This document shows, piece by piece, positions 9,522-39,952 of a DNA stretch of 40,105 nucleotides (its first letter is position 1; each line of letters starts with the position of its first letter). This DNA is from an uncultured Candidatus Saccharibacteria bacterium. GTDB lineage: Bacteria; Patescibacteriota; Saccharimonadia; Saccharimonadales; Saccharimonadaceae. The position numbers and the translations under genes are program-made. Location: NCBI GenBank assembly GCA_947425085.1, contig CANDYV010000004.1:1-40105 (forward strand). The letters run 5' to 3'. The notes beneath the pieces were generated by a model that was given only the letters and a program-made list of their open reading frames with translations, was not told where the DNA came from and did not search any database.

Positions 9522-10994
9522 CTATCTAGCGACGCAACGGACAGAAGAGCCCAAGTTGCGCGACGTGGTAGCAGCCGCATCAATATTGGTACTATCGTGG
9601 AAATATAGCTCCGAACTAGCATTGGCATTTACGCCCGTAGACGACCAATATCGGCCATTATTCCCAGCATTCACAAAATAATTAGTTGTTTGGTTGACGT
9701 AACCACCTTTTACAAAATAATACGGTGATGAAACTAATTTTACTACACTAGTTCCAACATTAGCAGCCGTAATTAAGGATCGAAAGGCGCCCGAAGTTCC
9801 TCCGGTTGGCAAGGTCCACCCTTTCGGACAAATGGAGCTAGTGGCTTGACCGAAAGACACACTCCCGCCAGTCCCAGCCGCTGCTGCATTCCATTGATAA
9901 TGATTTCCTAATATATAATGTGCGTTCACATCCCCATTAGCCGAAGTCGGCGTGTTATACGACGTAAATTGGGCACTACAGTTAGCTGCGCTACTATTTC
10001 CAGCACTACAAGAACTCGTGGAAGTCGGATTTGTAATCCTATAGTTTCCTAAATTCCAAGAACGCTGACCAGCGCTATCAGCCAAAATAGTAGAGCTAGA
10101 CGCAGTTGTTGCGGTGCTATACTCCGGAACCCAATTCGCAGTAACATCAGAATCGCTCGGAGTCAAAGCAGTTGAGGTAGAAAGGTCAAGATCTAAGTTC
10201 TGCGTCATCCAGCACTTTCCATCTGCCAACTTGCCGACCCAATAATACTTTCCGTCACGCGTATCACGAAGTTGCGCCTGGTCGCCATCAGCAACCTGCG
10301 AACAAATTGAACTTGTCATACCTTGCATAGTCGTAGTAAAATCAGCAAGCGTCATCTGTCTCGGGCTACTAACGACCGACACTACCACCTTATTTTCATA
10401 GATATCGGCCGGCTTATCATTCCCAACATGCGCCGCAAAGCTTAAAGTATATACGTCGCCATCTGACTTAATGTTAGTAGACGCATTTTCATCAATAACG
10501 TCACCCAAGCTATTGATTGGTATAGCCTGAAAGGTAGTACCCGGAGTTAAACCTTTAGTGACATTATATCCCCAGGAGTTAAGTGGCATGTCATTATAAG
10601 CAACTGGCGCAGCAATCGAATTGATAGTGGCTCCCGAAGAACGACCCGTTAATGTCGACTTGTTACTCCCGAAGTAAATAGTATAACCTCCAGAGTTTTC
10701 AATACTGATATAAGCCTGGACATAATATTGAGCAAAAGCGCCGTTAGGCGATGCAGGCGTAAGCGACGTAGAACCGGTAGCCTTTGTAAAACCAATATCA
10801 ACAGACGACTTAATCTCGGCTTGTGCCATCGGCTCGCTTTCATTCTCCGCCTGAACATCTGTCTCCTCCCCTGAACCGTCTAGCGCATTAGCCCTGCTTC
10901 CTAATGGGGGATTAACTAGCAAGAATGCCAGTAGCAACAAACTTATGCAGGTCGCGCTCCCAACAATATTAACTTTTCTTTGACCTTTTAGCAT
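9522..10994 (-). CDS. Secreted FISUMP-domain surface protein 1
   Basis: Signal-like N-terminus (MLKGQRKVNIVGSATCISLLLLAFLLV) and FISUMP core RDTRDGKYYWVGKLADGKCWMTQNLDLDL. Start at ATG 10994 with RBS AAGGAGGG. Confidence 0.85.
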   Translation of the reverse strand: MLKGQRKVNIVGSATCISLLLLAFLLVNPPLGSRANALDGSGEETDVQAENESEPMAQAEIKSSVDIGFTKATGSTSLTPASPNGAFAQYYVQAYISIENSGGYTIYFGSNKSTLTGRSSGATINSIAAPVAYNDMPLNSWGYNVTKGLTPGTTFQAIPINSLGDVIDENASTNIKSDGDVYTLSFAAHVGNDKPADIYENKVVVSVVSSPRQMTLADFTTTMQGMTSSICSQVADGDQAQLRDTRDGKYYWVGKLADGKCWMTQNLDLDLSTSTALTPSDSDVTANWVPEYSTATTASSSTILADSAGQRSWNLGNYRITNPTSTSSCSAGNSSAANCSAQFTSYNTPTSANGDVNAHYILGNHYQWNAAAAGTGGSVSFGQATSSICPKGWTLPTGGTSGAFRSLITAANVGTSVVKLVSSPYYFVKGGYVNQTTNYFVNAGNNGRYWSSTGVNANASSELYFHDSTNIDAAATTSRNLGSSVRCVAR

Positions 10995-11217
10995 CACGGC
11001 CCTCCTTTTGATTGGTTTATGAACGCCCGAACGAAGCAGTCTAATATACAAAAAGACGCCGCAAGGGCGTTCAACAAACTAATCTGCAAGTATTAGAAAC
11101 AAACAGTAAGTCTGAACCTTACGGCGTCATTTCACTAGTTGTTTCTAATTTTTGCACTTGTCCCATAAAAAGACACTTGCAGTTTTGATAATTAATTTGT
11201 TGAACACTTTCATTATA
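10995..11217 (-). promoter_or_regulatory. Structured 5' leader and promoter of FISUMP gene 1
   Basis: Minus-strand TATAAT (11212-11217); leader shares conserved blocks and paired segments with the leader of FISUMP gene 2. Confidence 0.75.
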
Positions 11218-38242: not shown

Positions 38243-39733
38243 TTACCGGGCGATACAACGGACAGACATACCATAATTCCTAGCATATGTATCGCCTAAC
38301 GGAGTAATAGTGGATGCACCGTTAAACGTCAAGTAATACGCAGTCGTACTGCTCGAAGCTTTCGGAGTAGAAGACCAGTAATATCCTTGGTCGCCAGCAC
38401 GAGCAAATAGCCAGCTGTTATTAGGTTCGACTTTACCACCCCTCACAAAATAATACGGAGAACTAGTTAATACGGCGACATTAGCACCCACAGAACCAGA
38501 GTTTATAAGTCCCTGCAAGCTACCGATACTCGTATCATTCGCTGTTGGCAATCTCCACCCCTTCGGGCAGATTGAATCGCTCGCCTGTCCAGAATAAATC
38601 TCACCACCAGTTCCAGCCGTCGCCGCATTCCAGGAGTAATGATTGCCCAAAATATAATGCGCATTAATATCCGCATTAGCGCTAGTAGGCGTCAAATATG
38701 CAGTAAATTGACTGGTGCAATTCGCTGCGCTATTTTTAGGGTATCCACAATCATTCGCTGTCGTCGGATTAGTGATTCGATAATTTCCCAAGTTCCAAGA
38801 ACGCGCCTGCATCCGGTCGTTCGTGATCGTCGAGCTAGTCGCACTCGTTGCTGTTGTATACCCAGGTGTCCAATTCGCAGTAACGTCTGAATCGCTCGGC
38901 GTCAACGCCTTCGATGTCGACAAATCAAGGTCTAAGTTCTGCGTCATCCAACATTTACCATCCGTCAATTTACCAACCCAATAGTATTTTCCATCGCGCG
39001 CGTCTTTCAGCTGCGCCGTATCGCCGCTTTTCGACGCCGCACAAACCGCCGTTGTCATGTCTTGCATGTTTGCCAACGACGTGAGACCAACTATCTCCAA
39101 CGGCGAAGACACCACACTCATCGTCACCGAATTCCGATAAGTTCCGGCCGGTTTATCTGCACCGATATTCGCCGCAAAGCTCAAAGCATAAGTCGTCGTC
39201 TCACTCGGGATACTTGTCGAAGCATTCGTATAAAGCGTTTCGCCCCGTCCCGCCGTCGAAATCGCCTTATATTGCGCATCATCCGCCACGGTATCCGTAT
39301 TTCGCGCCCAAGCATAGCCCCAGGTATTCGTCGTCATCTCGCCGTACTTCTTCGTTCCAGAAATCGGCGCAATCGTCTCCGTCCCGCCAACTCGCGTCAA
39401 ATTCGCACTACTACTCCCAACATAAACACTATATCCTCCCGAATTCTCCACGCTCACCGTCGCTTTCACTAACAATTTCGCCGACGCACCGGCCGTTGCT
39501 GACGGCGCCATCGATGCCGAGCCCTCCGTCGGACTAAAAGCAATATTCACCGTCGAAATTGTCGTCGCTTGCGGAGAAACTAAATCATCATAATTTTCAC
39601 TATTCTCAATAACTTCTTCCAGCGCACTCGCCCTACCTCCAATAAGTGGATTGACTAATAGAAATGCTAGTAGCAATAAACTTATACAGCTCGCACTCCC
39701 GGCGACATTAACTTTTCTTTGACCTCTTCGCAT
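38243..39733 (-). CDS. Secreted FISUMP-domain surface protein 2
   Basis: Paralog of gene 1: RGQRKVNVAGSASCISLLLLAFLLVNP and KDARDGKYYWVGKLTDGKCWMTQNLDLDL. RBS AAGGAGGG; ATG at 39733. Confidence 0.85.
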   Translation of the reverse strand: MRRGQRKVNVAGSASCISLLLLAFLLVNPLIGGRASALEEVIENSENYDDLVSPQATTISTVNIAFSPTEGSASMAPSATAGASAKLLVKATVSVENSGGYSVYVGSSSANLTRVGGTETIAPISGTKKYGEMTTNTWGYAWARNTDTVADDAQYKAISTAGRGETLYTNASTSIPSETTTYALSFAANIGADKPAGTYRNSVTMSVVSSPLEIVGLTSLANMQDMTTAVCAASKSGDTAQLKDARDGKYYWVGKLTDGKCWMTQNLDLDLSTSKALTPSDSDVTANWTPGYTTATSATSSTITNDRMQARSWNLGNYRITNPTTANDCGYPKNSAANCTSQFTAYLTPTSANADINAHYILGNHYSWNAATAGTGGEIYSGQASDSICPKGWRLPTANDTSIGSLQGLINSGSVGANVAVLTSSPYYFVRGGKVEPNNSWLFARAGDQGYYWSSTPKASSSTTAYYLTFNGASTITPLGDTYARNYGMSVRCIAR

Positions 39734-39952
39734 CACGGCCCTCCTTAAATTGGTTTACGAACACCCGAACGCCGCCACTCCATATAAAAATGACACCGCA
39801 AGGGTGTTCGACAAACTAACCTGTAAGCGAAACGCAATTAACGGATAGCCTGAACCTTACGGTGCCATGTTTTTCGTCAATTACGAATCGCTACTGTATA
39901 TAAAAATATACGCTTACTTTAATGGTTTAATTTGTCGAACACTTTCATTATA
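39734..39952 (-). promoter_or_regulatory. Structured 5' leader and promoter of FISUMP gene 2
   Basis: Minus-strand TATAAT (39947-39952) followed by GAAAGTGTTCGACAAATTAA and blocks shared with leader 1. Confidence 0.75.

Follow-up and report, generated by a model that had tools for sequence, protein, structure and literature searches.

The window, the whole stretch of 40,105 nucleotides analysed here, is contig C4 of the 717-kb, 45-contig genome of an uncultured Candidatus Saccharibacteria bacterium. Its minus strand carries two genes for FISUMP-domain surface proteins. The first (9522..10997, starting at GTG 10997 or ATG 10994) encodes a secreted protein that matches TIGR02145 (E 8.3e-15), and its match to Pfam Fib_succ_major (E 2e-6) lies under that model's cut-off. 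The second (38243..39736) matches Fib_succ_major at E 1.2e-10. An earlier note, made from the sequence of the window, described a structured leader of about 210 nt shared by these two genes, with three helices and a possible pseudoknot. The sequence elements that it listed are all present on the minus strand, at 11217-10995 for copy 1 and 39952-39731 for copy 2, and the pairings (A with B, P2, P3, and the loop with a downstream segment) are found in both copies, with the changes that it described. The span does contain a structured RNA, but its 5' end is a promoter -10 box, TATAAT (11217-11212), and not RNA.

Copy 1 can be read along the minus strand as follows. The extended -10 box (TGTGATATAAT, 11212..11217), recognised by its sequence and by TANNNT spacing among 101 matches, precedes the 5' strand of P1, or A arm (GTTCAACAAATTAA, 11192..11205), which is supported by covariation in 16 copies and in 96 distinct leaders. 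The P2 5' strand (CTGCAAGT, 11175..11182; sequence and 16-copy covariation) is followed by a conserved U-run (11167..11171); over 99 leaders, this run has at least five T in 51, with a mean longest run of 4.4 against 3.3 after shuffling. The two strands of P3 (TTAGAAACAA, 11139..11148, and TTGTTTCTAA, 11093..11102) are identified by sequence, folding and cis-pairing energy. Between them lies the P3-loop segment GACGCCGTAAGG (11117..11128), which covariation marks as the 5' strand of the pseudoknot, the putative antiterminator. The P2 3' strand (ACTTGCAG, 11084..11091), with the same support as its partner, leads into the P1 3' strand, or B arm (TTAGTTTGTTGAAC, 11069..11082), which is assigned by own-arm pairing and covariation and whose C11069 pairs with G11205.

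Next comes a predicted intrinsic terminator, ACGCC-CTTGC-GGCGT and then C-TTTTT (11050..11070), the evidence for which is its sequence, a T-run in all relatives and dual covariation; its 3' arm and loop (11066-11055, minus strand) double as the 3' strand of the pseudoknot. Complementarity energies define element C (GGGCGTTCATAAACC, 11014..11028), a complement of the B arm and the terminator 5' arm, and a Shine-Dalgarno sequence, AGGAGGG (11000..11006), lies within AAAGGAGGGCYGTGATG just ahead of the gene. Copy 2 has its -10 box at 39947..39952, by sequence, and its RNA, from G+1 through the terminator U-tract, at 39786..39940, by sequence and copy comparison. This includes the pseudoknot segment GGCACCGTAAGG (39866-39855) and the terminator (39807-39786), and element C, GGGTGTTCGTAAACC, follows at 39752..39766, again by complementarity energies. 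The predicted fold of copy 1, at -54.7 kcal/mol, is far more stable than those of 200 dinucleotide-shuffled sequences (z = -5.8).

Where does the RNA begin? In 86 of 101 matches (85%), T(-1)G(+1) has a TANNNT hexamer exactly 5 nt before it, and most of the others are off by one or two nt. The covariance model R1 with which leaders were sought was built without the promoter, so this fixed spacing is independent support for the leader. G(+1) is invariant in P1 (96/96). Given the fixed -10 spacing and the invariant G, the first nucleotide of the RNA is probably the first nucleotide of P1, and the most likely transcription start of copy 1 is G11205 on the minus strand.

The leader is not limited to the two genes that the earlier note described; 16 genes of the window genome bear one. 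These diverged leaders were located by DNA similarity and by the AAAGGAGGGCYGTGATG start region, which occurs at 15 sites and as one variant on contig C15 (a reversed control pattern has 0 sites). Their arms differ almost everywhere. The order of parts is shared by all 16: -10 box, A arm, P2, U-run, P3, P2', B arm, terminator, element C, ribosome site and secreted protein, and the P3 loop has a G[GA]C[AG]CCGYAAGG-like sequence. The leaders are not the product of a recent duplication.

Pairing is retained in spite of this divergence. In the 16 copies, the 32 pairs tested (P1 12, P2 7, pseudoknot 13) are 96.9% paired, compared with 68.9% after shuffling and less than 47% when the columns are slid by 1-3, and two-sided changes are seen at 22 pairs. 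Every A arm prefers its own B arm (16/16; mean -23.9 kcal/mol for own and -8.2 kcal/mol for other arms). The earlier note had held that its reading would fail if conservation were confined to recent duplicates and covariation were lacking in a larger alignment. That is clearly not the case: in 96 distinct leaders, drawn from many genomes, 98.3% of the P1 cells are paired, a figure that falls to 57.0% if entire 3' strands are exchanged between sequences, and P1 contains 465 two-sided compensatory cells. The pseudoknot is 94.7% paired in the same leaders, against 86.9% when swapped (maximum of 500 swaps, 88.6%), and the interior P2/P3 strands pair at -25.8 kcal/mol in cis and -12.6 kcal/mol when swapped. 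Swap controls leave shared ancestry in these comparisons; however, P1 positions show up to six pair types each, with four to six at most positions, and the P1 covariation is therefore not due to ancestry alone. RNAalifold, run without a hint on a MAFFT alignment of the single-copy group, picks the pseudoknot helix only, with 13 pairs that include A's against the U-tract. P1-P3 are missing from this result because their variable arms are misaligned in that alignment, and they were tested on anchored columns instead.

It is close to certain that the leader RNA is real and has this structure. Could the leader instead be a repeat acting at the DNA level, such as a recombination or inversion site? 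It does have many copies and inverted repeats, and assemblies often end shortly downstream of it. This explanation is strongly disfavoured, to the point of being barely credible, by the pairing retained though the arms differ in almost every copy, by the fixed promoter and terminator, and by the strand-specific order of the parts.

The pseudoknot proposed in the earlier note exists and covaries; what was overlooked is that its downstream strand also serves as one arm, the 3' one, of a terminator hairpin. It spans the loop and 3' arm of the predicted terminator together with the first U, and since it is common to both structures, hairpin and pseudoknot are mutually exclusive. A T-run follows the terminator stem in 99/99 leaders, and the computed pseudoknot is stronger than the hairpin in all 99 (mean -21.6 vs -7.0 kcal/mol). 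All three strands vary together. At the outer terminator pair, the triple formed by P3 loop, 3' arm and 5' arm reads G,T,A in 37/99 leaders, G,C,G in 30/99 and A,T,A in 10/99, and G,C,A in 18, where the terminator pair alone is lost. Two loci from other families, L247 (GGGCAAC/GACAACC/GGTTGTC) and L248 (GGGCGAC/GACGACC/GGTCGTC), differ by one transition repeated in all three strands.

Two hallmarks of an attenuator are therefore found together: a terminator-like hairpin with a U-tract between promoter and start codon, and a conserved alternative pairing that excludes this hairpin, through the shared 3' arm and with joint covariation. With 5-6 pairs and a mean of -7 kcal/mol, the stem of the terminator is short, and about 20% of leaders lack its outer pair; the terminator could be weak, or unused as a terminator. 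A hairpin that would mask the P3 loop locally gains only slightly over shuffled upstream sequence (-5.3 vs -3.75 kcal/mol). At L063 and L129, a second terminator-like hairpin (GACACCG...CGGTGTC) with a T-run lies directly after the first, giving tandem terminators.

How widely is the leader distributed? The earlier note had suggested a covariance model search and an Rfam scan; the former located the leader in many further genomes, and in the latter no family matched it. At E up to 0.1, R1 matches 35 of 60 same-genus genomes, some of them marginally, with 40 matches in G055, 23 in G040 and 18 in G022. At E up to 0.01 it matches 37 of 121 family genomes and 27 of 147 class genomes. A second model, R2, made from 20 single-copy sequences, finds the leader in 50 of 294 class genomes (Saccharimonadia) at E up to 1e-4 and in 15 of 379 phylum genomes, three of these being weak matches outside the class. 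Among them, L244 combines a perfect P1 of 15 bp with, on inspection by eye, a pseudoknot of 11 bp and a -10 box that keeps the usual spacing. All of these counts are lower bounds, with rough E-values and strict filtering of the large searches. The leader is mostly single-copy across Saccharimonadia and weak beyond. When 84,980 genomes were scanned for an exact pattern, 89 stretches were returned, of which 82 are labelled Saccharibacteria. The same pattern had no match in viral contigs, and a viral origin was rejected. Three contigs of rabbit gut MAGs, labelled Oscillospiraceae, Bacilli and Clostridia (L165, L198, L203), carry the leader together with Saccharibacteria-like surface genes; from a reading of their genes, they are probably misbinned.

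In Rfam 15, the window yields two tRNAs only at the gathering threshold and no match to the leader. The best E-value for the leader in E-value mode is about 1, far under gathering scores, and the leader region of ten single-copy loci is likewise without a match. The literature that was searched does not describe the leader. No reverse transcriptase is evident among the neighbour genes that were read.

Which genes lie behind the leader? The FISUMP domain TIGR02145 occurs in 37 of the 44 proteins encoded behind leaders of the multicopy clade, and Listeria-Bacteroides repeats occur in four. The description of the leader as a large regulatory RNA of surface-protein genes thus holds, with regulation argued from anatomy and conservation. 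Six downstream proteins of this clade weakly match NF058581 (CPR Pam pilus pilin C-terminal), and some may be pilin-like. Outside the clade, the downstream genes encode mostly membrane or secreted proteins; DUF4352, TM2-like, OmpA-like, YgjV-like and DNA-methylase proteins are among them. A hydrophobic segment occurs in the first 60 residues of 27/45 single-copy-type ORFs, compared with 7/32 window genes (Fisher p 0.001); if segments at any position are counted, significance is lost (p 0.06). The leader lies 5' of a DNA methylase gene at L131 (by Pfam) and L138 (by reading), and L129 and L245 look similar by reading, with methylase-like and restriction-like ORFs.

These genes also bear on whether the leader is a stand-alone small RNA that acts in trans, with the terminator as its normal 3' end, the pseudoknot as part of the mature fold, and the downstream genes as incidental or read-through targets. 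The strong promoter, the compact fold of about 130-160 nt, the U-tract end, the single copy in most genera and the differing downstream genes are all consistent with such an RNA. Nevertheless, it is improbable. In 45 of the 48 loci outside the multicopy set, a co-oriented ORF begins within 130 nt of the leader (median 40 nt), 39 of these 45 ORFs have a Shine-Dalgarno-like motif, and in at least one of the three exceptions (L249) the next ORF, by reading, is a very short membrane-protein-like one. Moreover, a single domain is common to most downstream proteins of the multicopy clade, and the pseudoknot is incompatible with the hairpin that the small RNA would need for its 3' end.

FISUMP genes are present in all 37 genus genomes tested. 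They do not need the leader: R1 is without a match in species that have 54-57 FISUMP matches. The inspected FISUMP genes without a leader, for example in the sister species G053 and G004, begin just after the -10 box. They share the protein domain and the -10 box with the leader genes but have a very short 5' UTR, and the RNA of 150-200 nt is absent. The leader thus appears to be an added, regulatory module, present in some lineages only. In many cases the contig ends a few hundred bases or less from the leader and truncates the downstream gene (e.g., G012:C11:247-398 and G040:C3:231-380). Near-identical or strain-variable 5' parts of FISUMP coding regions probably break these assemblies, a possible sign of gene conversion or antigenic-type variation.

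In the multicopy clade, element C lies 3' of the terminator and just 5' of the ribosome site, and is complementary to the P1 3' strand and the terminator. Its pairing partner differs between clades. In the window genome it reads GGGYGTTC...AAACC, partly mimicking the A arm, and pairs with its own B arm at -20.7 kcal/mol and with those of others at -14.6 kcal/mol. Against the B arm and terminator together, the values are -30.3 kcal/mol for its own C, -22.5 for the C of other genes and -16.3 when shuffled, and C pairs best with its own leader (permutation p <1/5000). By contrast, C in G055 and several other species is a second copy of the P3-loop segment (e.g., AAAATGGCACCGCAAG) and is not gene-specific (in G055, own -27.2, others -26.9, shuffled -14.0 kcal/mol). 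Outside the multicopy clade, C is weak (single-copy leaders -19.7 vs -14.9 kcal/mol). Because it is located after the terminator, C cannot stop the first termination event; its position suggests a role after read-through, as a latch or insulator.

Element C invites two other explanations. The first is a translational switch, in which P1 and pseudoknot pairing compete with pairing of C to the B arm and terminator to set access to the ribosome site, termination being minor. In favour of such a switch, C of the window genome stops a few nt short of the conserved AAAGGAGGG, and its pairing is specific for the B arm of its own leader. It is nonetheless unlikely, given that C is about 20-40 nt from the ribosome site in other clades, that no conserved pairing to the Shine-Dalgarno sequence itself was seen and that the U-tract is kept in every leader. 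The second is that the terminated leader, once set free, acts in trans via C to silence the message of its own gene or those of paralogues, so that surface paralogues repress each other and expression is exclusive. Copy numbers reach 40, and the C of G055 is a near-universal complement of that genome's terminators, which would make cross-talk possible. The preference of C for its own leader in the window genome favours action in cis, however, and the core is largely paired intramolecularly; silencing in trans is very improbable.

The preferred reading, with a probability of roughly 0.6, is that the leader represents a new family of cis-acting transcription attenuators, with the P3-loop pseudoknot as the antiterminator. 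This reading rests on comparison: the helices, the pseudoknot, the hairpin and U-tract, their overlap, the complementarity of C within the multicopy clade and the gene association. Transcription would start at the first nucleotide of P1, and P1 (the 5' end with the B arm), P2 and P3 would fold as the RNA is made. If the emerging 3' strand paired with the adjacent 5' arm, a short G+C hairpin followed by the U-tract would form and transcription would end. If it paired with the P3-loop segment (GGCACCGYAAGG), a pseudoknot of 12-15 bp would remove the hairpin and cover the start of the U-tract, allowing read-through. A factor or ligand bound to the P2/P3 core might alter access to the P3 loop and so set the ratio of termination to read-through. 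In the multicopy clade, C would pair after read-through with the B arm and/or the terminator and displace the A arm or the P3 loop; this pairing would lock the message, such that the terminator could not re-form and the ribosome site would be kept apart from the leader. Actual termination, the direction of the response, the signal and the function of C are parts of this scheme that we infer. The diversity of downstream genes outside the genus suggests no metabolite. In the single-copy group, the pseudoknot is bordered by some nucleotides that are conserved and unpaired, and the genes suggest no ligand. The earlier note had overlooked the conflict between terminator and antiterminator, the constant position of the promoter, the complementary element further downstream, the number of copies, and the relatives beyond the genus, which are single-copy and stand before other genes.

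The control of the switch between host-attached and free states in Patescibacteria has been called completely unknown (PMC11665869). A leader before up to 40 surface-protein genes offers a concrete, testable handle on surface-gene control in Saccharibacteria parasites. With it comes an RNA family, widely covarying and absent from Rfam, whose putative antiterminator takes the form of a long-range pseudoknot; in one clade, a third strand, sited after the terminator, would compete as well. A more tentative idea, possible but with the odds against it, is that this one RNA module ties the surface proteome of Saccharibacteria, with FISUMP and other surface genes numbering as many as 40 in a genome of under 1 Mb, to a single shared signal. 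The P1/P2/P3 stems would be private to each gene, the almost identical antiterminator core would be readable by one factor or ligand, and the third strand of the multicopy clade would serve as a latch. If this were true, the module would be the main known gene-control device of host-dependent Saccharibacteria.

How does the leader compare with known systems? LOOT RNA (RF03000) is also a folded RNA of Saccharibacteria-related genomes, but the leader differs from it in consensus and fold. RF03000 has no match in the leader region, and the same search finds LOOT elsewhere in L115, so that identity of the two was rejected. A single-copy leader and its DUF4352 gene are located about 1.1 kb upstream of this LOOT RNA (L115:2744-2861, 74 bits), which precedes a small membrane protein gene. 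Attenuators of the trp leader-peptide and T-box types form mutually exclusive antiterminator and terminator structures with a common strand, as the leader is predicted to do. In contrast to these, the leader contains a Shine-Dalgarno sequence and ATG in 9 of 99 cases only, which led to rejection of leader-peptide attenuation as the general mode, and it has no T-box match. In the ZTP/pfl, fluoride/crcB and preQ1 riboswitches that act on transcription, a pseudoknot competes with a terminator hairpin directly 5' of the gene, and the leader resembles them in this arrangement. It differs in having no Rfam match, no association with metabolic genes and many copies per genome, and in its architecture: a P1 that starts from the first nucleotide of the transcript, a P2/P3 core, and a pseudoknot of 12-15 bp that takes in the complete 3' arm and the beginning of the U-tract.
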